Shown: in pieces, positions 20,350 to 31,587 of the stretch
Position numbering within the stretch: the stretch's first letter is position 1
How the letters are laid out: each line of letters starts with the position of its first letter
NCBI RefSeq assembly: GCF_900107535.1
Contig: NZ_FNRA01000015.1
Location: 1-64,000 of the forward strand
Origin: Pedobacter hartonius
GTDB lineage: Bacteria; Bacteroidota; Bacteroidia; Sphingobacteriales; Sphingobacteriaceae
Length of the DNA stretch: 64,000 nt
Direction: 5' to 3'
Notes under the pieces: generated by a model
Database searches by the model: none
What the model was told of the DNA's origin: nothing
Seen by the model: the letters and a program-made list of their open reading frames with translations, nothing else
Made by a program: the position numbers and the translations under genes

Positions 20350-22944
20350 ATGAAATTATCGCTAAAATATAATCCCGTTCCTTTCATCAGGGAAAATTAC
20401 AAGATCATTTTCAGCTATATCTTCACCTTGTTTTTTATAGGTCTGGCCATATGGTTTATTCAGCATGAGCAGGCAGAGCTGCAGCAGGTAAAACATCTGG
20501 TGATCACCTCTAAATGGGATTGGATAACCCTGGGTGTAGCATTGAGCGTGGTGTATGTATTTGTGCACGGAGAAATGTACAGGGCATCCTTTGCCGCAGT
20601 TGGCAGTACAGTAGGGCTGATCGATGCCACCATGTTATATATGAAAAGAAATTTCATCAGTGTGTTTTTACCCGCTGGTGGAGTTTCTTCTCTTGCCTTT
20701 TTCAGCGGCAATATCGAGAAAAGCGGAGTCAGCAAGTCGCAGATCAATTTTGCATCTTCCATCTACGGTTTTGTAGGGATTCTCTCTGTAGTGGTGATCG
20801 CCGTTCCCGTTTTTATTTATGCGATCTTTGAAGGGAGCATCGGTGCGGGAGAATGGTTTGGCCTGGTAGCTGTGTTTGCCCTGATCGGCGGTGTTTACCT
20901 CATCTACCGTTCTATCGCGTTGAACGGTAGGTTCTACCGGTTTATCGTCAGATATATTCCGGTGGTAGACGTATTTCTGGCGGAATTCAAAAATAACAAG
21001 ATAGAACGGAAAAGTTTCATCAGGACTTTTCTCTGGAGTATGCTGATCGAGATCTTTGGGGTCCTGCATATTTATATAGCCATGCTGGCACTCGGCATCC
21101 AGCCTTCAGTGCTGATTGCAACGGTTAGTTATGTGGTAGGGGTAGTGTTCCTGATCATTTCTCCATTTCTGCGCGGCCTTGGTGCTGTTGAAGCATCAAT
21201 GACCTTCATGCTGATCAGGATGGGATACACCGAAGCTGCTGCAGTTTCCGTGACCTTCCTTTACCGCTTCATGGAATTCTGGATACCTTTGTTACTGGGC
21301 GCCCTGAGTTTTCTGGTGAAAATCAATAAGCTGCTGATGCGTATTGTTCCGGCCCTGCTGATCCTGGTGCTGGGCATCGTCAATGTGGTGTCTGTATTAA
21401 CGCCAGCTATCCATGAAAGGCTTGTTTTCCTGAAGAACTTCCTCCCCGTATCAGCCATTGCAGCTTCCAACTATTTTGTTCTGGTGGCAGGATTGTTCCT
21501 CCTGGTCACTGCGGCATTTATGCTCAAAGGACTAAAAATGGCCTGGTACTTTGCCATGGGCCTCTGTTTGTTATCATTAATCGGTAACATGACCAAAGCG
21601 ATCGACTATGAAGAGGCCACTTTTTCGGTAATCGTGATCATCGGCCTGATCGCCTCCAGGAAAGAGTATTACGTAAAACATAATTCAAAGCTTCGCTATC
21701 TGGGTATTCAAACAACCTTACTCAGTGTGGCGGCCGTAGTGCTGTATGGCACGTTAGGCTTTTATTTCCTCGATGCCAAACACTTCAATGTCGATTTCAG
21801 TTTCCTGCAGTCCGTTCGTTACACACTGGAAAACTTTGTGCTGATCGGTAATGATGACCTGCTGGCACAGGATTCTTTTGCCCAGGGGTTTTTGTATTCG
21901 ATCAATTTCAGCGGTTTCCTGTCCCTTGCTTTCCTGGTCTACACGCTGATCCGTCCTTATATCCTCAAGGAAACTACGGATGAGGAAGAATTTGAATGGG
22001 CCAGAAAACAACTTGATCTGTATGGCAACTCTGCCATGGATTACTTTAAAACCTATCACGATAAGCTGATCTACCGTGCGGAAGAACTGGAAGGATTTAT
22101 TTCTTATCGTATTTCAGGAAACTTCGCCGTAGTACTGGAATCGCCGGTTACGGCACCGGAGAATCTGGCGGTTTTTATCAGGTCATTTGATAAATACTGC
22201 TTTGAGAGCGGAATGAAAAGTTTCTACTACCGCGTAGCGGAAGAAACACTGGAACCATTTATCGCCTGTGGCAAGAAGAAATTGTACCTCGGGCAGGAAG
22301 GCGTGGTAGACCTGAACACGTTTACGCTGGACGGCGGAAACCGCAAGTCTATCCGTAATGCACTGAAAAAGGTAAGCGAGAAAGGCTTCAAGAGTAAACT
22401 TTACACTGCACCTGTAAAAGACGGGCTGCTCCAGAAAATAAAATCCGTTTCGGATGAATGGCTTGCTGATACCGAAAGGGAGGAGATCGTATTCTCGCAG
22501 GGGATGTTCGACTGGGATGAACTGAAGAAACAAACGATCATCACCGTAGAGAATTCGGAGGAAAAGATTGTGGCTTTCTTGAATGTAATCCCCGATTATG
22601 CCAAAGGCGAAGGAACTTATGACCTCATCCGGAAAACACAGGATGCACCAAACGGAGTGATCGACTTTATCCTCGTGGAGCTGTTCAAATACCTGAAAGC
22701 TGCAGGCCGCAGTTCGGTTAACATCGGTTTTGCGCCCCTGTCAGGATTGGATGATCCCAAAAACCTGACCGAGCGTTCCATGAAATTTGCCTATGAAAAA
22801 ATCCGCTCTTTCTCTCATTATAAAGGACTCAGGGATGCCAAGGACAAATTTTCACCGGAATGGCACAATAAATACCTGGTTTATGACCAGGATTATGATC
22901 TGATCCAGGTTCCTGCTGTTTTAGCAAAAGTGATCAGGCCTTAG
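20350..22944 (+). CDS. mprF: Bifunctional phosphatidylglycerol lysyltransferase/flippase
   Basis: An 864-residue MprF-type protein. The N-terminal part (about 1-545) is a multi-helix flippase domain, and the C-terminal part (about 560-855, DUF2156 GNAT-like) transfers an aminoacyl group from tRNA to phosphatidylglycerol, with RISGNFAVVLESPVTAP early and IDFILVELFKYLKAAGR, then NIGFAPLSGL near the end. It makes and flips positively charged lipid, lowering binding of cationic peptides. The amino acid used (Lys or another) cannot be read. A terminator follows at once. Confidence 0.9.
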   Translation: MKLSLKYNPVPFIRENYKIIFSYIFTLFFIGLAIWFIQHEQAELQQVKHLVITSKWDWITLGVALSVVYVFVHGEMYRASFAAVGSTVGLIDATMLYMKRNFISVFLPAGGVSSLAFFSGNIEKSGVSKSQINFASSIYGFVGILSVVVIAVPVFIYAIFEGSIGAGEWFGLVAVFALIGGVYLIYRSIALNGRFYRFIVRYIPVVDVFLAEFKNNKIERKSFIRTFLWSMLIEIFGVLHIYIAMLALGIQPSVLIATVSYVVGVVFLIISPFLRGLGAVEASMTFMLIRMGYTEAAAVSVTFLYRFMEFWIPLLLGALSFLVKINKLLMRIVPALLILVLGIVNVVSVLTPAIHERLVFLKNFLPVSAIAASNYFVLVAGLFLLVTAAFMLKGLKMAWYFAMGLCLLSLIGNMTKAIDYEEATFSVIVIIGLIASRKEYYVKHNSKLRYLGIQTTLLSVAAVVLYGTLGFYFLDAKHFNVDFSFLQSVRYTLENFVLIGNDDLLAQDSFAQGFLYSINFSGFLSLAFLVYTLIRPYILKETTDEEEFEWARKQLDLYGNSAMDYFKTYHDKLIYRAEELEGFISYRISGNFAVVLESPVTAPENLAVFIRSFDKYCFESGMKSFYYRVAEETLEPFIACGKKKLYLGQEGVVDLNTFTLDGGNRKSIRNALKKVSEKGFKSKLYTAPVKDGLLQKIKSVSDEWLADTEREEIVFSQGMFDWDELKKQTIITVENSEEKIVAFLNVIPDYAKGEGTYDLIRKTQDAPNGVIDFILVELFKYLKAAGRSSVNIGFAPLSGLDDPKNLTERSMKFAYEKIRSFSHYKGLRDAKDKFSPEWHNKYLVYDQDYDLIQVPAVLAKVIRP

Positions 22945-22987: not shown

Positions 22988-23262
22988 AAGAAGACTGTAG
23001 TTAAACTCCCGGATTTTTCCTGAAAATGCTATTTTATTTTATTGATGCAGGCTTTATGCGTTTGCTAAATGGTATAAGCTTTCTAAACAGATGCATGTAT
23101 TTATGTTGGCTGCATGTTTTTGCATTTTATTATTTAAAATATGCAAGAATTGTCATTTATAAATCCATATATTTAAAATATCAACGTTTAAAAGGATTTA
23201 TTGCTGTTCTCTGCGGTTTTAATTCCCGGATTACCGGCAAGTCCATATACCAGATTTTTAAA
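22988..23262. other. AT-rich region upstream of anmK
   Basis: This stretch is open in the anmK frame from 23026 but encodes an atypical Tyr/Phe/Cys-rich extension not found in AnmK, so I treat it as non-coding leader and promoter DNA. No exact TAnnTTTG box was found. Confidence 0.5.
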
Positions 23263-24456
23263 ATGAACAATCAAATCTCAAAATTAGCAGGGATAAGCAG
23301 CGCTTCCACAAGGGTCATTGCCGGTTTAATGTCAGGAACATCATTGGACGGGCTTGATATCGCCCTGTGTGAATTTAGCGGCTCCGGATTGAACACCCGG
23401 CTGAAAGTGCTCCATTTTATTACTTTTCCGTATAAAGAAGCATTCAAGGAACAGCTGAAATCAATTTCTTTTAAAGGCCAGGTAAGCCTGCAGCAGGTGA
23501 CGCTGCTGAATGCCCTGATCGGAACGTATTCTGCAGAGCTGATCCTGGAAGCGCTGAAGAAATGGGACTACCCGGTTGACGCTGTAGACCTGATCGCCAG
23601 CCATGGCCAGACAATCTTTCATGCGCCTTTTTCCCTTCATCAGCAAATTCCCTTTCCTGATGCCACCTTACAGATCGGAGACGGGGACCATATCGCGGTA
23701 AAAACAGGCATCATCACCCTGAGTGATTTCCGGCAAAAACATATTGCTGCCGGTGGTGAGGGTGCACCACTTGCCGTTTATGGTGATTACCTCTTATTTT
23801 CAAGTCCTGATGAGAACAGGATCCTGCTGAACATCGGCGGTATTTCCAACTTTACCTATCTGCCTGCCGGAAGGGACGCCAATCACGTTTTTTCTACCGA
23901 TGTTGGTCCCGGAAATACGATGATGGACCAGTTCATACAATTGCATTATCCCGGAAAATATTATGACCAGGATGCTGCTGTCGCGAAAACAGGAAAGGTG
24001 AATGAGGCACTGGTAGCAGCACTGATGGACAACGACTTTTTTGCTGATCCTTTTCCCCGCACCACAGGACCGGAGCTGTTCAATATCGCCTATCTCCGTG
24101 CTGCGCAAAAACAATCAGGACAGGAAGCCCTGGCACCTGAAGATATACTCGCTTCACTGTGTGAGTTTACTGCCAGAAGCATCATTGCTGCAATCAGGAC
24201 TTCGATCGGTGATCAGCCTTTCGCTGTTTACCTGAGCGGAGGGGGGATGCATAACCCGCTGCTGGTAGATAAACTTACCGCAGGACTGGGCTTTGAACTT
24301 AGGAATACTACAGCGCTCGGAATAAATCCGGATGCCAAAGAGGCGGTTCTTTTCGCCCTGCTGGCGAATGAATGTGTGGCCGGTGGCGATACAGATTTTG
24401 GTGCCAGGCAGGGAATCCCCAGTGTAACCATGGGGAAAATAAGCCTTCCTTATTAA
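23263..24456 (+). CDS. anmK: Anhydro-N-acetylmuramic acid kinase
   Basis: AnmK opens the 1,6-anhydro ring of anhydro-MurNAc and phosphorylates it to MurNAc-6-phosphate, a step in recycling cell-wall sugar. Family marks are GLMSGTSLDGLDIALCEF at the start, DVGPGNTMMDQF in the middle and LSGGGMHNPLLVDKL near the end. The start at 23263 gives 397 residues, the family's usual size, and places the phosphate loop near residue 18. It leads into SusC after 40 bp, an unusual link between recycling and outer-membrane import. Confidence 0.92.
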   Translation: MNNQISKLAGISSASTRVIAGLMSGTSLDGLDIALCEFSGSGLNTRLKVLHFITFPYKEAFKEQLKSISFKGQVSLQQVTLLNALIGTYSAELILEALKKWDYPVDAVDLIASHGQTIFHAPFSLHQQIPFPDATLQIGDGDHIAVKTGIITLSDFRQKHIAAGGEGAPLAVYGDYLLFSSPDENRILLNIGGISNFTYLPAGRDANHVFSTDVGPGNTMMDQFIQLHYPGKYYDQDAAVAKTGKVNEALVAALMDNDFFADPFPRTTGPELFNIAYLRAAQKQSGQEALAPEDILASLCEFTARSIIAAIRTSIGDQPFAVYLSGGGMHNPLLVDKLTAGLGFELRNTTALGINPDAKEAVLFALLANECVAGGDTDFGARQGIPSVTMGKISLPY

Positions 24457-24496
24457 TATATCAATCCACAAGACAACCTATCAAATCAATCAAAGT

Positions 24497-27496
24497 ATGA
24501 GAAAAACTTTACTCAACCGACCCTGCCAGCTCGCTCTTCTGCTGGTCTTAATGTTCCTGTTCCACGCAGGTTTGGGAGTTGCCCAAACCCGCGATTATAC
24601 CATAAAAGGTGTAATTACGGATGCAAGAACCAATGAACCGATCCCGGGTGCCACCGTAAGGATCAGCAATGCCAGTGGCGGCGCTGTAGCAAGCCGCGAT
24701 GGCGCTTACCAGATCAGTACCAGCCTGAAACCCGGAAAATATCAGCTTACCTTCAGCTTTATCGGGTATTCACCGGTGCTGAAAGACATTGTGCTGGGGG
24801 GCAGCCCTTTAGTTACGCTGGACGCAAAGATCGCTGAAGATTACCTGCGGTTAAATGAGGTTGTCGTAACAGGAACCTCGGTAGCCACAAGCCGTAAGAC
24901 ACTTGGAAATGCCATTGCTACGGTAAATGCAGGAGATATTGCCAACAGCTCGGCCACCTCAATAGATCAGGCACTGGCGGGCAAGATATCCGGCGCGCAG
25001 ATCACCCAGAATTCAGGAAACCCTGCAGGAGGGATCAGTGTAAGGCTCCGCGGTACAAGTACCGTTGCCGGATCCGGTGACCCGCTGTATATCGTGGATG
25101 GAGTGATCGTCAACAATAACTCTTCGGAACTGCTGGATCTGGGCGGCTATTCCCAGAACCGTATGGTAGACATCAATCCCAATGATATTGACCATATGGA
25201 GATCATCAAAGGTGCTGCCGCTGCCGCGATCTATGGATCGAGGGCAAGTAACGGGGTAGTGCAAATCTTCACCAAGAAAGGTAAAATAGGGAAAACACAG
25301 TTTAACTTTTCTTCACAGCTGAAAGTAAGCGAGCTTAGAAAAAAGCTGGAAGTGAATACTTATCCATTCCGCTTTAACAATACGCTGGCTACCGATCTGA
25401 CGCAAACAGCAGTTAGCCGTTACGATTACCAGGATGATATTTTCAGGACTGCCATCGGAACGGAAAATAACCTGTCTGTTTCGGGTGGAACAGAAAATAC
25501 ACAATATTATGTAAGCGGTAACTTCCTCGGTAACCAGGGAATCATCGATGCTACCAATTTCAGAAGGGCAGGTGTCCGCGCAAAGATCGATCAGAAACTG
25601 AATAACTGGCTGAAGATGTCCATCGGTACCAATTATATCCTGAGTACAAGTAATGAAGTTCCAAACGGTGGTATCAATGAGGCCTATGGTGCATTGACAG
25701 GTTTTATTTTCTCCAATAACTATATTAATCCTTATCCTGTTAATGGGGTGTACCCCTCTCTGTCTACCGCTATTGCCAGAACCAACCCGCTGGAGGCGAT
25801 CAACAGGTTTGACTTTCAGCAGCGTACCAGCCGCTTTATCGGAGATTTCCAGCTGATGGCCAACCCGGTAAAAGGATTGAACATCAACTATGTCCTGGGA
25901 TATGATAATGCCACGCAAATTGGTACAGGATACATCCCGGTGGGCAATACTACGCCAAGTTACAATACAGGTTATTCAAGAAGGGCAGATCAGACCACCT
26001 TCCTGGTGAATAACGATTTGAATATCTCTTACCAGACTAAAATAAATGACTGGCTGGAATCTACTTCGGGCATTGGCGGTACAGCACAAAGTCAGAAAAC
26101 ATACCAGACAAGTATTACGGCTACTTTACTGGGCCCGATTGGCCAGACAATCAATAACGGGGTTTCTGTTGCCTCTGAATACCGCAGTGACGTGAATATC
26201 CTGGGTGCTTTTGCGCAGCAGACTTTTGGCATCCTGAACAAATTCTATATCACCGGTGCAGCACGTTATGATGAGTCGTCTGTTTTTGGTGAAAAATTCA
26301 GGGGCCAGTTCTACCCCAAAGTAAGCGGCAGTTATGTGATCTCCAATGAGAAATTCTGGACCGACTCAAAGATCTCCAATGTGATCTCCAGCTTTAAGAT
26401 CCGTTCATCATACGGACAGGCAGGAAATTTAACGGCAATCGGGGCTTATGATAAAACCACATCCTACGTTCCTGTAAATGTTTCAGGACAACCTTCTGTA
26501 ACATCGCCCACATTACTGGGGAACCCGGATATCAAACCGGAACGCCAGACAGAGTTTGAGGTGGGTACAGACATGAGCTTTTTCAAAGACAGGTTAAGCC
26601 TGGAATTCAGTTACTACAAAAAGGATGTGAAAGACCTGATCCTGCTCGCCAGCCTGGCACCTTCTGAAGGTTACCTGAGTCAGTACCTGAACATCGGGAC
26701 GATGACCAATAAAGGAATCGAGCTGATGGTAAGGGGAGTACCCATCCTCAAGGATAATTTCAGGTGGAACGTAACGGCAACTTATTCAAGGAACCGCAAC
26801 CAGATCAATGACATCCCGGGCGGAGTGTTACTTTTTGCCGGTGGTTTCAGCCAGGTAGCTGCTGTGGACGGACAACCCTTAGGTACGTTTTATTCCACCT
26901 ATTTTGCACGTAACGCCGATGGCTCACTGCTGCTGAATGCAGCCGGTTTGCCTACAACAGAGAAAGTTGGCCGTGACGCCAACGGACAGCCTTCGGGAGC
27001 AACACTGAAAAAGGTGATCGGTGACCCTAACCCGGACTGGATAGGCTCCCTGATCAATGAGTTCAATATCGGTAAACACTGGTCGTTCCGCACACAGTTT
27101 GACGCTTCTATCGGTGGTGATGTGTTTAACTTTACAAAACGGGTGGGCGACCGGGATCTTTACGGAGGACTGGTTGGTTACGAGAAGGAGCTGAAAGGTG
27201 AGGTGCCTAAAGGTACGTCGGCCGCGGAGTTTGCGATCTTTGAAAACTGGATCGAAGATGGTTCTTATGTGAAACTGAGAGAAGCTTCAGTAAGTTATGA
27301 GTTTAAACCAAAATTCCTGAAAACCGGAAGTATGCGGTTCAGCCTTGCAGGACGTAACCTGCTGTCGTTTGATAGTTACAGTGGATATGACCCTGAGGTA
27401 AACGCGGCAGGACAAAGCTCTGCGGTCCGCGGGTTCGACTTCGTGGAAGTGCCGATCCCGAGAACGATCGTTGCAGGTTTTAACATCACTTTTTAA
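24497..27496 (+). CDS. SusC/RagA-family TonB-linked outer-membrane transporter
   Basis: A 999-residue outer-membrane receptor: signal peptide, carboxypeptidase-regulatory-like beta-sandwich (about 33-115, IKGVITDARTNEPIPGATVR), plug domain (about 125-255, from LNEVVVTGTSVATS to SRASNGVVQIFTKKG) and a 22-strand-type barrel ending in PRTIVAGFNITF with terminal Phe. With SusD it imports oligomers in a TonB-dependent way. The neighbour anmK suggests cell-wall sugar or muropeptide cargo, by inference only. Confidence 0.93.
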   Translation: MRKTLLNRPCQLALLLVLMFLFHAGLGVAQTRDYTIKGVITDARTNEPIPGATVRISNASGGAVASRDGAYQISTSLKPGKYQLTFSFIGYSPVLKDIVLGGSPLVTLDAKIAEDYLRLNEVVVTGTSVATSRKTLGNAIATVNAGDIANSSATSIDQALAGKISGAQITQNSGNPAGGISVRLRGTSTVAGSGDPLYIVDGVIVNNNSSELLDLGGYSQNRMVDINPNDIDHMEIIKGAAAAAIYGSRASNGVVQIFTKKGKIGKTQFNFSSQLKVSELRKKLEVNTYPFRFNNTLATDLTQTAVSRYDYQDDIFRTAIGTENNLSVSGGTENTQYYVSGNFLGNQGIIDATNFRRAGVRAKIDQKLNNWLKMSIGTNYILSTSNEVPNGGINEAYGALTGFIFSNNYINPYPVNGVYPSLSTAIARTNPLEAINRFDFQQRTSRFIGDFQLMANPVKGLNINYVLGYDNATQIGTGYIPVGNTTPSYNTGYSRRADQTTFLVNNDLNISYQTKINDWLESTSGIGGTAQSQKTYQTSITATLLGPIGQTINNGVSVASEYRSDVNILGAFAQQTFGILNKFYITGAARYDESSVFGEKFRGQFYPKVSGSYVISNEKFWTDSKISNVISSFKIRSSYGQAGNLTAIGAYDKTTSYVPVNVSGQPSVTSPTLLGNPDIKPERQTEFEVGTDMSFFKDRLSLEFSYYKKDVKDLILLASLAPSEGYLSQYLNIGTMTNKGIELMVRGVPILKDNFRWNVTATYSRNRNQINDIPGGVLLFAGGFSQVAAVDGQPLGTFYSTYFARNADGSLLLNAAGLPTTEKVGRDANGQPSGATLKKVIGDPNPDWIGSLINEFNIGKHWSFRTQFDASIGGDVFNFTKRVGDRDLYGGLVGYEKELKGEVPKGTSAAEFAIFENWIEDGSYVKLREASVSYEFKPKFLKTGSMRFSLAGRNLLSFDSYSGYDPEVNAAGQSSAVRGFDFVEVPIPRTIVAGFNITF

Positions 27497-27517
27497 GAAT
27501 TCTTCAATTTAAACAAC

Positions 27518-28816
27518 ATGAACAAAAGATATAACCCCATAAAATTCACCCTTTTAGCCAGCCTGCTGCTTTTTGCGGGAAGCTGTAAATTGGATACGGT
27601 GAACCTGAACGCACCCGCGGAAACGGACGTGCTGACAACAAGAGAAGGAATCATTGGCTTAAGTGTGGGCCTGAGGCAGTTCAATTCCACCAATGGTATC
27701 AATGCTGCGTATTTTTATCCTGCGGTAACCTCGAGAGAACTGCAGGGAGTAGCCAGCTTTACCAATGTACTGGAACTGGAAGCGGGCGGAACGGCCCTGC
27801 CAACCGCAAACGGCAATATCCTGACGTTATGGTCCAACATGCAGCGCATGATGACCATGAGCCAGAATATCATTGACAATGCACCTAAAGTCAGCACCCT
27901 CACCGGCGGCCTGCTCTCGGGGATCATCGCCAATGCAGAACTTTTTAAAGCGATAGCCCTGGGTAACCTGGCCGTTTCCTTTGAACAGGCGAATATCAAT
28001 ACAAGTACTACCGAAAAAGTGACGTTCGTGCCAAGGGCGCAGGTATTGGCAGAGGCCATACGCCTGCTGGATGATGCAATTGCGAGAACCAATACCACAC
28101 CTCCAACTGCGGAATTCACTACGCTGGTGGCCGGCTCAAGGTTTGACCTCAAAAGCGTGTTGTACGCCTTTAGTGCCAGGTATAACCTGATGGCAGGCAA
28201 TTATGCCGCGGCATTGCTGAGCGCCAATCTGGTAGACCAGACAAAGGCAAATGCATATGAGTATAACGCGCAAAGTGTAAACCCGATATGGAACAATATC
28301 AATACCCTGAAGTATTATACTCCAAGGGCAGGTTTTGGACTGCCTGCAGGACTTTTTGAGGCAGGCGACCTCCGTCTTAACTTTTACGTGAGTATAGTGG
28401 GAACGGTGCGTACGCTGACAGGGTTTGGCGCTACACAAACAGCAAACGTTCCGGTTTACCTGCCTGATGAGATCAAGCTTGACAAAGCAGAAGCAATGCT
28501 GAGAACCGGCGGCTCACTGACGGACGCACTTGCGCAGATCAATGCGGTAAGAACGCAGGCATCGGGAGATCTGTTTGGTGTGAATGCCGGTTTGCCGGCA
28601 TACAGCGGTGCAGTTACACAGGCAGACCTGCTGGTGGAGGTGTACCGTCAGCGTTGTGCAGAGCTGTTCCTTACCGGGCAAAGATGGGAAGACTCGCGCC
28701 GTTTTGGCCGTCCGTTTTCGCTGACCGATTTTACGGAACGTAACCGGAATTTTTATCCTTATCCGGATCAGGAGCGGTTGAATAATCCGAATACTCCGGC
28801 TGATCCGGCGATATAG
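27518..28816 (+). CDS. SusD/RagB-family surface lipoprotein
   Basis: A 432-residue lipoprotein with lipobox FAGSC (Cys23), then the SusD helical TPR-like fold and the family's ending VYRQRCAELFLTGQRWEDSR, then RFGRPF. It forms the lid of the SusC transporter and binds the substrate outside the cell. It is shorter than typical SusD (about 500-550), mostly in the middle. It begins 21 bp after SusC and is followed by a very long terminator hairpin. Confidence 0.9.
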   Translation: MNKRYNPIKFTLLASLLLFAGSCKLDTVNLNAPAETDVLTTREGIIGLSVGLRQFNSTNGINAAYFYPAVTSRELQGVASFTNVLELEAGGTALPTANGNILTLWSNMQRMMTMSQNIIDNAPKVSTLTGGLLSGIIANAELFKAIALGNLAVSFEQANINTSTTEKVTFVPRAQVLAEAIRLLDDAIARTNTTPPTAEFTTLVAGSRFDLKSVLYAFSARYNLMAGNYAAALLSANLVDQTKANAYEYNAQSVNPIWNNINTLKYYTPRAGFGLPAGLFEAGDLRLNFYVSIVGTVRTLTGFGATQTANVPVYLPDEIKLDKAEAMLRTGGSLTDALAQINAVRTQASGDLFGVNAGLPAYSGAVTQADLLVEVYRQRCAELFLTGQRWEDSRRFGRPFSLTDFTERNRNFYPYPDQERLNNPNTPADPAI

Positions 28817-28840
28817 TTGAGGTTTTCCCTGGCTTCGCTG

Positions 28841-28921
28841 AAAAATAAGGTATGCTATATCGATGCTGCCGGCTGCTGAAGCGCAGCCGGAAAGGCATCG
28901 ATATAGCATACCTTATTTTTT
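28841..28921 (+). terminator. Very long perfect terminator hairpin after susD
   Basis: Positions 28841-28866 are the exact reverse complement of 28895-28920 (26 bp), and the enclosed sequence has its own perfect 8-bp stem (28869-28876 with 28883-28890) around TGAAGC. A run of T's closes the right arm. It separates SusCD from the serine hydrolase and can work in both directions. Confidence 0.88.
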
Positions 28922-28940
28922 TTAGATCATCCAATGCATG

Positions 28941-29005
28941 ATGGCCGGTCAGATTGCATACCAGCACAATGGCTGTTCCAGGTTACTGCAGCATGATGGC
29001 TGTTC
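28941..29005 (+). promoter_or_regulatory. Three spaced repeats ATGGCYGKTC upstream of the serine hydrolase
   Basis: ATGGCCGGTC (28941-28950), ATGGCTGTTC (28969-28978) and ATGGCTGTTC (28996-29005) recur at 28 and 27 bp, the first and third also sharing GCATG just before. Spaced direct repeats of this kind are typical operators; the nearby DeoR-family repressor is a possible binder. This is a guess from spacing. Confidence 0.35.
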
Positions 29006-29077
29006 TTATGCAAAGAATCTGTGATGATACATTTATGATATGATCATTTTATATATTTAAAAACAAATACCAACCAG

Positions 29078-30847
29078 ATGAATAAAAGAACTGCCTGCTT
29101 TATTTTAGGGATACTTTTCGGCAGTGCCGGAACATTATCCGCTCAAAACAGCCATCAAAATAATCTGCTCTGGCTGAAAAATGAGCAGGATGCAGAGAAA
29201 AATTCGGTCATTATCCAGAATGAAAAAGGATTGGTGCCGATTATTGGCCTGGAAGAACTCGCTGCCGCAAGTATCAATCTGGGCTCGGCCAACAGTGCCG
29301 TGTTCAATTCCCTGCTGAACAGGTATGTTAAAGTAGATACGCTGAGCGGTTATCCCGCTTCGGATATTAATGGCTATGCGCATTTAAATGACGATCTTAA
29401 ACTTTACCGCACGGCAATTTTCCAGCTTTCTGATGCCACGGTATATGACCAGCGCCTGCTCGGTTTTCTGCAGGAAATGGAAAAAACAAAAACGGTGGTG
29501 ATCGCTGTTTCAGGGAAAAAAGACCATACGGATTTTTTTAAATCTTTAAATGCACCGGTAGTATGGTGTAAGAACGGAACTCCTGAAGGGGCTGCCGTGC
29601 TGGCGCAGCTGATATTTGGCGGGATCAGTCTGGATCAAACGGCTATCCGCCTGAAATATACCGTACCGGAAGATGCCGGTGTGAACAGGGCCGATCTGGA
29701 TAGCATTGCGGTGGTGATGAAAGAGGCAATCGCTGCAAGTGCCGCACCGGGCGGCGTGGTGATGGTATTGAAGGACGGTAAAGTGATCTATGACCAGGCC
29801 TTTGGAAAACATACGTATACCGGTAACAGGGAAATGCGTACCACCGATATTTTTGATATGGCCTCGCTCACGAAAACTTCTGCCACAACGCTCGAAGTGA
29901 TGCGGCTGGTGGAAGAAGGAAAGCTTGGGCTGGACAGTACCATCAGTAAGTATATTGCCAGAACCAGGAGCATGGCCGACAAAAAAGATATCCTGGTGAA
30001 GGAAGTGATGCTGCACCAGGCAGGATTTACGCCTTTTATCACTTTTTATACACAGCTGAAACCGGGTGACATGAGTACGCTGAAGTCTGATAAATATCCA
30101 ACTGAGGTGGCAGATAACTATTTTATCCGGGCAAACTACTACCAGGAGGTCATGTGGCCGCAGATGCTGGCCGATAAGGCGCTGACCAGGGGCAAGTTTG
30201 TCTATAGCGACCTGAGCATGTACTACATGAAAGAGATTGTAGAAAAGGTGGCTGCAACGCCCCTGAATATGTATACAGATCAGAATTTCTACAAGCCCCT
30301 GGGTATGCAGACTGCCGGGTTTCTGCCGAGGGAGCGTTTTGCAAAAGACAGGATCGTTCCCACAACGGAGAATGACAGCTGGTTCAGGGACATGCTGGTG
30401 CAGGGTTTTGTAGATGATCCGGGAGCAGCTATGGCAGGAGGGGTAAGCGGCCATGCCGGTTTTTTTGCTTCAGCCAATGATATGGCTATACTGTACCAGA
30501 TGCTGCTCAATAAAGGCAGTTATGGCGGTAAGCAATATTACAAGCCTGCTACGGTGACTGAGTTTACATCGGGACAATCAAAAGTGAGTCGCAGGGGGTA
30601 TGGGTTTGACCGCAAGGACCCCGATCAGGCTAAAGGTTATCCTTCTTTTTTAGCTACGTCACAGGTATTTGGCCACACTGGTTATACCGGTACATGTGTT
30701 TGGGTAGATCCCTCCTGTAATCTGGTGTATATTTTTTTATCCAACAGGGTTTATCCTGATGCGAAAAAGAACGCATTGCTCACGCTCAGCATCAGGGGCA
30801 GGGTGCAGGATATCATTTACCGTGCCATACAAAAAGGAAAACGTTAA
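29078..30847 (+). CDS. Secreted serine hydrolase with GH3 C-terminal-like domain
   Basis: A 589-residue exported protein (signal peptide ending LSAQ). Residues about 24-195 resemble the C-terminal alpha/beta domain of GH3 glycosidases (EKNSVIIQNEKGLVPI; AQLIFGGISL), and about 205-585 form a class C beta-lactamase-like serine hydrolase with SxxK as S263-L-T-K266, YSD at 376-378 and GHTG at 532-535. Bacteroidota have longer enzymes fusing a full GH3 barrel to these two parts; here the barrel is missing, so glycosidase activity is not expected. DD-peptidase, esterase or amidase action on muropeptides is inferred from the anmK/SusCD neighbours. Confidence 0.85.
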   Translation: MNKRTACFILGILFGSAGTLSAQNSHQNNLLWLKNEQDAEKNSVIIQNEKGLVPIIGLEELAAASINLGSANSAVFNSLLNRYVKVDTLSGYPASDINGYAHLNDDLKLYRTAIFQLSDATVYDQRLLGFLQEMEKTKTVVIAVSGKKDHTDFFKSLNAPVVWCKNGTPEGAAVLAQLIFGGISLDQTAIRLKYTVPEDAGVNRADLDSIAVVMKEAIAASAAPGGVVMVLKDGKVIYDQAFGKHTYTGNREMRTTDIFDMASLTKTSATTLEVMRLVEEGKLGLDSTISKYIARTRSMADKKDILVKEVMLHQAGFTPFITFYTQLKPGDMSTLKSDKYPTEVADNYFIRANYYQEVMWPQMLADKALTRGKFVYSDLSMYYMKEIVEKVAATPLNMYTDQNFYKPLGMQTAGFLPRERFAKDRIVPTTENDSWFRDMLVQGFVDDPGAAMAGGVSGHAGFFASANDMAILYQMLLNKGSYGGKQYYKPATVTEFTSGQSKVSRRGYGFDRKDPDQAKGYPSFLATSQVFGHTGYTGTCVWVDPSCNLVYIFLSNRVYPDAKKNALLTLSIRGRVQDIIYRAIQKGKR

Positions 30848-31587
30848 AGCAGGGTAACCGCTTTGGCATATTGACTTAGATGAGGGTGTTTTGGCTCCAG
30901 GTCTGTGATCACGTAGTTGATCGCATTCAGGTTGCAGACCTTCATCTTATGAATGGAATTTATTTTTTCGGCAATGCTCATGACTGCGGTTTTTTCGGCA
31001 CAATTGATCATTGCCTTTTTGATCTGGATCACCTCCCAGTCGGAGTCTGTGATGCCATCCTGAAGGGAGATGCCATTGGTTCCCATGAAACAAAGATCGG
31101 CCTTGATGTCCGATAATTGATTGATCACCTGCGCACCCACGCAGATCTGTGAATTCTTAGCCAGTTGCCCGCCAATAAGGTGTACTTCAAGATTGGAATG
31201 TTCGGTAAGTTCGAGTGCCAGCAGGGGGCTTACGGTGAACAGCGTACAGCTCAGGTTTTCGGGAACCATCCTGGCCATCTCGATCATCGTCGTGCCGCCG
31301 CCGGTCAGGATCACCATGCCGTTCTGTATCAGTTTAAGTGCCTTCCTGGCAATCTCTTTTTTTCCTTCCCTGGCGTAAACTTCATTTTGCTGAAATGGGT
31401 AGTGGAATGATTTGGAGATGGCCCCGCCATATACCTTAAGTATTTTCCCTGCTTCGGCCATCTCATTCAGGTCCCGCCTGATGGTATCTTCCGAAACGTC
31501 AAGCTGCCTGCTCAGATCAGCCGAAAGCACCTTATTATGAATGTTTATTTGTTTGATAATATAGGCTTGTCGTTCGTCCTTTAGCAT
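30844..31587 (-). CDS. DeoR/GlpR-family transcriptional regulator
   Basis: A 247-residue repressor: N-terminal helix-turn-helix (about 4-58, SADLSRQLDVSEDTIRRDLN) and C-terminal sugar-phosphate sensor domain (DeoRC, about 75-235, with GGGTTMIEMARM and DLCFMGTNGIS). These proteins usually respond to phosphorylated sugars, so MurNAc-6-P, the product of AnmK, is a plausible inducer. It converges on the serine hydrolase with a 4-bp overlap of coding ends. Confidence 0.9.
   Translation of the reverse strand: MLKDERQAYIIKQINIHNKVLSADLSRQLDVSEDTIRRDLNEMAEAGKILKVYGGAISKSFHYPFQQNEVYAREGKKEIARKALKLIQNGMVILTGGGTTMIEMARMVPENLSCTLFTVSPLLALELTEHSNLEVHLIGGQLAKNSQICVGAQVINQLSDIKADLCFMGTNGISLQDGITDSDWEVIQIKKAMINCAEKTAVMSIAEKINSIHKMKVCNLNAINYVITDLEPKHPHLSQYAKAVTLL

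Follow-up and report, generated by a model that had tools for sequence, protein, structure and literature searches.

The first 64,000 nucleotides of contig NZ_FNRA01000015.1 of Pedobacter hartonius (Bacteroidota, Sphingobacteriaceae; herein referred to as the window) contain five open reading frames (ORFs) at positions 23263–31587 encoding an anhydromuramic acid kinase (anmK), a SusC/SusD-type outer membrane pair (susC, susD), a serine hydrolase (serH) and a convergent DeoR-family regulator (deoR). We propose that anmK–susC–susD, perhaps extended by serH, is probably an operon for scavenging peptidoglycan-derived sugar fragments. The proposal is carried by a gene order conserved in relatives, by pathway genes that recur beside the pair, and by homology between serH and part of a NagZ fusion. 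An initial annotation of the same DNA had named these five genes and their families as we find them, and its 40 bp between the end of anmK and the start of susC is exact. Its reading of the region as an uptake locus for cell-wall fragments resembling a polysaccharide utilization locus (PUL) gains from the three lines of evidence above and is weakened where the linkage fails in relatives; polysaccharide use in the strict sense drops out, as Pfam identifies no glycoside hydrolase (GH) among the five genes, and its suggestion of prey bacteria as a source of the fragments finds no support.

The window locus (on contig C33; the genome totals 5.19 Mb over 42 contigs) is composed of the following genes:

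23263..24456, + strand: anmK, 1,6-anhydro-N-acetylmuramic acid kinase (PF03702, 305.5 bits, cut-off 24)
24497..27496, + strand: susC-type TonB-dependent transporter (TIGR04056 SusC/RagA, 584.6 bits, cut-off 368)
27518..28816, + strand: susD-type surface lipoprotein (PF07980, 32.9 bits, cut-off 23.1)
29078..30847, + strand: serH, serine hydrolase, probably secreted (PF00144 beta-lactamase-like, 163.9 bits, cut-off 27)
30844..31587, − strand: deoR-family regulator (PF08220, 56.7, cut-off 21; PF00455, 138, cut-off 31.8)

The tandem susC and susD products both exceed their cut-offs and thus constitute a SusC/SusD pair, SusC comprising plug, barrel and carboxypeptidase-regulatory-like domains. AnmK is the sole PF03702 match in the genome and scores just short of the NCBIfam equivalog NF007149 (598.6 bits, cut-off 616). 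Its frame could also open at 23026; we consider 23263 the better start because the AnmK model aligns from its position 1 there and because relatives share a conserved block at approximately 23111–23175. The convergent serH and deoR overlap at their stop codons, and the best NCBIfam models for DeoR (GlpR-like and AgaR) are both under cut-off. Among the usual components of a PUL, a regulator gene (DeoR family) is therefore present, and a carbohydrate-active enzyme is absent from the window locus, with GH9, GH18 or GHL10 genes found in some relatives.

Conservation of the anmK–susC–susD Gene Order

Of 151 family genomes, 148 encode anmK and 32 a susD relative (E 1e-10 or better). These genomes hold 31 susD places scoring at least 167 bits, of which 20 (by hand count) lie on the same contig and strand as anmK and a few kb downstream of it; one more (G020) is split over two contigs ending inside susC, and 10 lie elsewhere. 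Of 20 genomes sampled from the genus of the window, 12 encode a susD relative, which is linked to anmK in every one of the 12. A scan of one genome per species, which was seeded by short peptide patterns and so missed some relatives, recovered at least 61 loci. The nearest among them is that of Pedobacter westerhofensis DSM 19036 (SusD 88%), in which 14 window query genes keep the same order. Across public species genomes, anmK lies on the same strand 5–57 bp before susC in 34 of 60 readable susD loci (a count that omits L231 and includes the six copies L188, L198, L200, L201, L202 and L225, single representatives within the species scan). Other arrangements include two Lacibacter loci with a divergent anmK and deoR in between, and two Flavobacteriales bins with anmK 3–4 kb upstream of the pair.

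A SusD tree of 85 proteins (the six copies and 10 loci lacking a usable susD frame were dropped) places the window in a clade of 43 rows, 35 of which have anmK upstream. The eight rows without a linked anmK are five Sphingobacterium loci, forming one group, and three contig edges (L090, L208, L216). The anmK label changes eight times on the tree compared with 27.5 times in shuffles, and none of 500 shuffles is as low, although some deep joins connect long branches and deep placements are unsure. The sister clade (24 rows, 14 of them anmK-linked) has a different set of neighbors. On these comparisons, the anmK–susCD order exceeds chance.

It is conceivable that anmK is a passenger, a housekeeping recycling gene under the same promoter as a SusCD pair whose substrate is unrelated. 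Indeed, anmK is nearly universal in the family, whereas only 32 genomes have the susD relative, and hence anmK does not need the pair. However, the linkage is kept in Sphingobacteriaceae, Hymenobacteraceae and one Puia bin (Chitinophagaceae), murQ and a symporter gene are added in several loci, and a candidate operator (see below) recurs in loci with deoR; we regard the passenger explanation as very improbable.

Genes Accompanying the Pair in Relatives

In the window's clade, the neighbors of the pair appear to point to muramic acid metabolism. The reactions of AnmK and MurQ are established family chemistry, and derivatives of muramic acid are the substrates of both enzymes. Seven of the 43 loci in this clade contain murQ and six encode a sodium:solute symporter, versus none of 63 control loci in either case (Fisher p 0.0013 and 0.0036, respectively, both uncorrected for relatedness). 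The controls comprise 48 anmK-centered loci without this pair and 15 serH-centered loci; neighbor counts omit the six copies and score the truncated anmK of L215 as absent (34 instead of 35). serH is found in 16 of the 43 loci and deoR in 12. Two Mucilaginibacter loci (L187, L203) contain an enolase-superfamily gene that is closest to the models for N-acetyl-D-Glu racemase and L-Ala-D/L-Glu epimerase, scoring below cut-off on each. A neighbor of 962–979 aa is encoded in L203, L214 (the Puia bin) and L182 (Pontibacter harenae); Pfam assigns those of L214 and L182 to an FAD-oxidase plus Fe-S class, and the nearest NCBIfam model for the L214 protein is YdiJ (589 bits, cut-off 1350). A YdiJ-class oxidase could plausibly act on D-lactate, which MurQ releases as its second product.

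The sister clade presents a different picture: a nagB/PIG-L fusion in 17 of 24 loci, a gene we take to be nagX-like (DUF5009 in Pfam) in 15 of 24, deoR in 17 of 24, and an N-sulphoglucosamine-type sulfatase in four loci. These two neighbor sets suggest a link to amino sugars for the whole SusCD group and a link to muramic acid for the window's clade. An alternative is that the pair imports N-acetylglucosamine (GlcNAc) oligosaccharides generally, from chitin or from host or fungal glycans, anmK being present as amino sugars are handled together. The sister-clade genes would suit this explanation, as would the GHL10 and NagA-like genes beside a Sphingobacterium pair of the window's clade and the GH18 genes beside several pairs (GH18 in L214 and L203, and outside the clade in L209 and L228; GHL10 in L182 and L177). 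However, muramic acid derivatives are the substrates of AnmK and MurQ, anmK is the most constant neighbor in the clade, murQ recurs there, and nagB/PIG-L is found in only 1 of the 43 loci. We therefore hold general GlcNAc import to be unlikely and retain muramic acid sugars as the preferred substrate class, the SusCD substrate being proposed here from gene context.

Several further arrangements were observed. In many genomes of the window's genus, a nagX-like gene and a nagB/PIG-L fusion lie near or divergent from anmK (L063:2257-5470, and like places within L062–L080), in many cases accompanied by deoR and a second SusCD pair. A 940-aa neighbor of nagX was considered as a NagZ fusion and rejected, being an M16-type peptidase by eye. 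In L082 (G037, on a contig shared with L225 of Olivibacter sitiensis), the pair is followed by GH9, polysaccharide deacetylase, murQ and sodium symporter genes, by gene content a fuller variant of the locus with an unexpected GH9. Distant SusCD relatives (L209, L219, L222–L224, L228–L230), several in Gemmatimonadota and Chlorobiota bins, include a pair beside GH18 and a beta-lactamase-like gene (L209) and one beside GH18 and a NagZ-like gene (L228). An MprF-type (lysyl-phosphatidylglycerol-synthase-like) gene at 20350–22944 lies directly upstream of the window's operon and is also found, among the loci compared, in L171 and L172.

serH Resembles the Rear of a NagZ Fusion

The serH product combines a beta-lactamase-fold domain with an N-terminal domain that Pfam does not recognize, and its residues S263xxK266, Y376 and H533xG535 are invariant in 16 aligned sequences (the window and 15 serH frames passing the filter). 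Matches at E 1e-20 or better in 150 of the 151 family genomes mark serH as an old family; a second copy (55% identical) is encoded in the same genome at C27.

In 22 of 24 genomes from the class's other families, a GH3 match falls within an ORF of 929–1035 aa, by length alone the size of a fusion. serH aligns with six of these proteins at 31–40% identity (E 1e-79 to 1e-103), with four of them from approximately residue 392–423 to the end and with two only from approximately 553–570, where the hydrolase domain begins. The NagZ-like GH3 protein of P. hartonius (L109, 590 aa; PF00933, 252.7 bits), encoded elsewhere in the genome, aligns with approximately residues 20–590 of all six. Pfam annotation of three fusions and one two-domain NagZ gave GH3, with GH3_C below cut-off, and beta-lactamase in the fusions. 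A profile of the serH N-terminal domain matches NagZ domain 2 (probability 97.3, E 2e-11) and the fusion middle (probability 99.7, E 5.8e-27; two control comparisons gave about 0.1). Direct BLASTP of the serH N-terminus against the genome's own NagZ-like protein returned no match; only the full-fusion and profile comparisons gave one. serH itself has the last two of the three domains that make up the single-chain NagZ/serine-hydrolase fusion. Judged from these alignments, serH and the rear part of the Bacteroidota fusion are homologues, so that P. hartonius has as two proteins what others have as one, serH and the NagZ-like protein each keeping a version of the shared middle domain; this split may be general in the family. 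A 974-aa serH relative of G038 was considered as a GH3 fusion and rejected; in this protein (L232:6596-9520), the serH relative is fused to a Peptidase_M19 (membrane dipeptidase) domain.

serH is also 28% identical to Escherichia coli YfeW, scoring below the PBP4B/YfeW equivalog NF002968 (174.2 bits, cut-off 385), and yfeW follows murQ–murP in E. coli. In Bacillus subtilis, amiE and nagZ follow murQRP, and their products degrade muropeptides sequentially outside the cell (PMC5061867). Given the fusion homology and these two gene arrangements, our best guess is that serH is a muropeptide hydrolase, acting either as an amidase or as a carboxypeptidase. A role outside the pathway, as an esterase or a protective beta-lactamase, would agree with the closest solved relatives of serH, which are family VIII esterases and penicillin-binding protein-like proteins. 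Against it stand true beta-lactamase models that score far below cut-off, homology that runs over the fusion rear including domain 2, and the homologue beside murQ–murP in E. coli, and we judge such a role improbable. The structural model of serH is poor (predicted local distance difference test, pLDDT, 64.7), and the 50 fold matches listed for it are beta-lactamase-fold hydrolases or relatives, none of them a NagZ.

A Candidate DeoR Operator Upstream of anmK

Comparison of anmK upstream regions revealed the following candidate site:

23111..23128, + strand: candidate DeoR operator, TGCATGTTTTTGCATTTT

The site lies 134 bp before anmK in a block conserved in the window, L171 and L172, and an inverted repeat, TTGCAT-N15-ATGCAA (23120–23146), overlaps it. 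A palindromic motif, TTGCAT-N12..18-ATGCAA, was rejected as the operator motif because it is exact in just 2 of 41 anmK upstream regions (the window and L171), and a direct-repeat core was used instead. This core, TGCRNNTTNTTGCR, was read from eight loci, the window included, and tested on the remaining loci. The window contains a single copy of the short core (0.20 expected), and the core with its trailing TTTT occurs once in the 5.19 Mb genome, at the candidate site; murQ and the NagZ-like gene are thus without such a site.

In the held-out loci, 14 of 38 deoR genes and 11 of 24 susC2 genes have the core in the 300 bp upstream of them (matches that often share one intergenic stretch), versus 5 of 1235 other genes. 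The core also precedes nagB/PIG-L (3/38), window-type susC (1/53) and sister-type susC (3/24); held-out murQ (0/7), serH (0/28) and the linked symporter (0/4) gave none. At least one pathway gene is preceded by the core in 9 of 20 held-out deoR loci, compared with 45 of 2580 roughly matched four-gene draws, in a test that excludes sister-type loci of the window's genus, the eight training loci and three copies. Two held-out loci (L084, L086) had been viewed beside training loci, and both are without a core match; in the 300-bp upstream counts, the window's anmK registers as a miss because its start was set too early. From the co-occurrence of the core with deoR, we infer that DeoR may bind the candidate site.

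A Repeat Element Between susD and serH

The susD–serH junction of the window is occupied by an additional element:

28829..28966, + strand: dispersed palindromic repeat, identified from its matches elsewhere in the genome and its fold

The susD–serH gap measures 261 bp here and 8 and 10 bp in L171 and L172, whose junctions are free of the repeat; with gaps this short, serH probably belongs to the operon in those two relatives. The repeat forms a strong hairpin (28840–28921, with a T run at its end; −63.7 kcal/mol, z −10.1). It gives 43 matching rows in its own genome, including this copy, its inverse and the inverse of the best other copy, so that approximately 40 copies elsewhere is a lower bound, with 40 of 66 candidates scored. 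The best other copy is 89% identical over the stretch. The element, of approximately 130 bp, looks like a repetitive extragenic palindromic (REP) or miniature inverted-repeat transposable element (MITE) type, and its insertion may have uncoupled serH expression from the operon in this genome.

Proposed Scavenging Pathway

The remaining functions required by the proposal are largely found elsewhere in the P. hartonius genome. MurQ is encoded at C20 (TIGR00274, 319.9 bits, cut-off 302), the NagZ-like protein scores 132.6 bits against the NCBIfam beta-N-acetylhexosaminidase model (cut-off 207), and an enolase-superfamily protein is 50% identical to the epimerase-like product of L187; all three lie outside the locus. 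A search for the L214-type YdiJ-class oxidase gave a partial 27% match only. No AmpG (TIGR00901) passes the cut-off, one weak partial match reaching 23.5 bits against 350; the model is insensitive (of 14 control genomes, it gave a match in 5 and one above cut-off in 2), and a divergent AmpG could escape it. Periplasmic trimming, after which only sugar crosses the inner membrane, would fit this gene set, and signal peptides were read by eye in both serH and the NagZ-like protein. In Rhodothermus marinus, NagZ-type breakdown is listed as periplasmic and AmpG is noted as lacking (PMC6987092).

We hypothesize that SusC and SusD import (anhydro)muropeptides, or their disaccharide or monosaccharide parts, across the outer membrane. 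Periplasmic serH, probably a hydrolase of the AmiE/YfeW kind acting on peptide bound to N-acetylmuramic acid (MurNAc), would remove the peptide, and the separately encoded NagZ-like enzyme would remove GlcNAc, a division of labor suggested by their partnership in one chain in other Bacteroidota. An inner membrane carrier, for which a sodium symporter of the kind encoded beside the pair in some relatives is a candidate, would bring the resulting 1,6-anhydroMurNAc into the cytoplasm. AnmK would then phosphorylate it to MurNAc-6-P, which MurQ would convert to GlcNAc-6-P and D-lactate. DeoR would repress the operon from the site before anmK, as the comparison of upstream regions supports, and an amino-sugar phosphate may release it. 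The presence of an outer membrane importer argues for scavenging from outside rather than only for turnover of the cell's own wall. That these features (a muropeptide SusCD pair, trimming split between NagZ and an amidase, a MurT-like symporter, AnmK with MurQ, a DeoR switch and possibly the lack of AmpG) together define a branch within Bacteroidota is a more tentative suggestion, to which we give somewhat less than even odds.

Several observations weigh against the scavenging proposal. First, the linkage of anmK to the pair in relatives, on which the initial annotation had let its reading depend, holds in the 35 clade rows and breaks down in 10 sister-clade copies and in the five Sphingobacterium pairs, where the sequence read shows no anmK; the Sphingobacterium pair scanned with Pfam is the one adjoining GHL10 and NagA-like genes. 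Second, murQ, serH and deoR each accompany a minority of clade loci, the nagB/PIG-L and sulfatase neighbors of the sister clade also suit other amino-sugar glycans, and the epimerase, oxidase and NagZ matches are below their NCBIfam cut-offs. Third, no peptidoglycan-cutting enzyme is present in the window locus, and in this strain the hairpin element parts serH from susD. Fourth, the core precedes held-out anmK in only 5 of 32 cases with deoR in the locus and in 1 of 64 without it, and the held-out motif p-values are not independent, coming from related genomes and overlapping intergenic regions. Finally, the SusD structure does not choose a ligand. A good model (pLDDT 84.9) was obtained, its fold matches include solved SusD proteins (best E 1.5e-9, compared with 0.024 for a sequence search against solved structures), and C23, within a lipobox read by eye, is invariant in 49 aligned sequences (the window and 48 of 60 SusD proteins). 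At 14–16% identity, the matched proteins include the peptide binder RagB, the sialic acid binder NanU (rank 12) and the chitin binder AqSusD (rank 40).

Relationship to Known Systems

That a SusCD-type pair can carry a monosaccharide is illustrated by NanOU of Tannerella forsythia and Bacteroides fragilis (PMC3969230). Like the proposed system, the NanOU sialic acid PUL places a TonB-dependent SusC/SusD-type pair that imports an acidic amino sugar within a catabolic operon; however, its substrate is sialic acid rather than muramic acid, and the window's SusD is only distantly related to B. fragilis NanU (4l7t; 15% identity in the fold match). The ampG–murTKQ operon of T. forsythia likewise serves the use of external MurNAc and muropeptides in a member of Bacteroidota and encodes MurQ, a kinase and a carrier for MurNAc, but it differs from the window in having MurK instead of AnmK (no AnmK ortholog is predicted) and in possessing AmpG (PMC7670621, PMC5388701, PMC5790795). 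For this carrier, MurT, PMC5790795 gives the sodium symporter superfamily in one passage and the major facilitator superfamily in another. T. forsythia depends on outside MurNAc, and the available parts of these three accounts do not name the outer membrane transporter.

In E. coli (murR/murQ–murP–yfeW) and B. subtilis (murQRP–amiE–nagZ; PMC5061867), a hydrolase is likewise encoded with MurNAc uptake and MurQ, and with a dedicated regulator; homology to serH is shown for YfeW, and AmiE is likened to it by description only. Unlike the window, both systems use the phosphotransferase system carrier MurP, are without SusCD, and have a MurR-type regulator rather than DeoR. A PUL of the mussel symbiont Urechidicola combines two SusCD pairs with deoR, murQ, nagB, ampG, ampD, an L-Ala-D/L-Glu epimerase, a DD-carboxypeptidase and GH3, GH18, GH171 and GH10 genes; its authors noted the murein genes and leave the substrate source open (PMC10199937). 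This PUL is large and of a different lineage, and anmK is not named in the available text. The RmNag3-type NagZ of R. marinus has the order GH3, domain 2, beta-lactamase, and serH matches the last two in the fusions we read; its authors note the absence of AmpG and draw a link to peptidoglycan turnover (PMC6987092). In contrast, serH is without the GH3 catalytic domain, the NagZ-like protein is encoded by a separate gene, and the likeness to RmNag3 is by description only.

A literature search (open-licence papers, mostly titles and the beginnings of abstracts) found no description of an anmK–susCD operon among the papers listed. Many SusCD pairs are without an assigned substrate. If the proposal is true, a SusCD family would be assigned to muramic acid sugars, of which the same search gave no description, and this would help to annotate SusCD pairs. 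A chain of NagZ and hydrolase domains is present here as two proteins, and the conserved anmK–susC–susD operon offers a named gene pair that can be tested in culturable soil bacteria.

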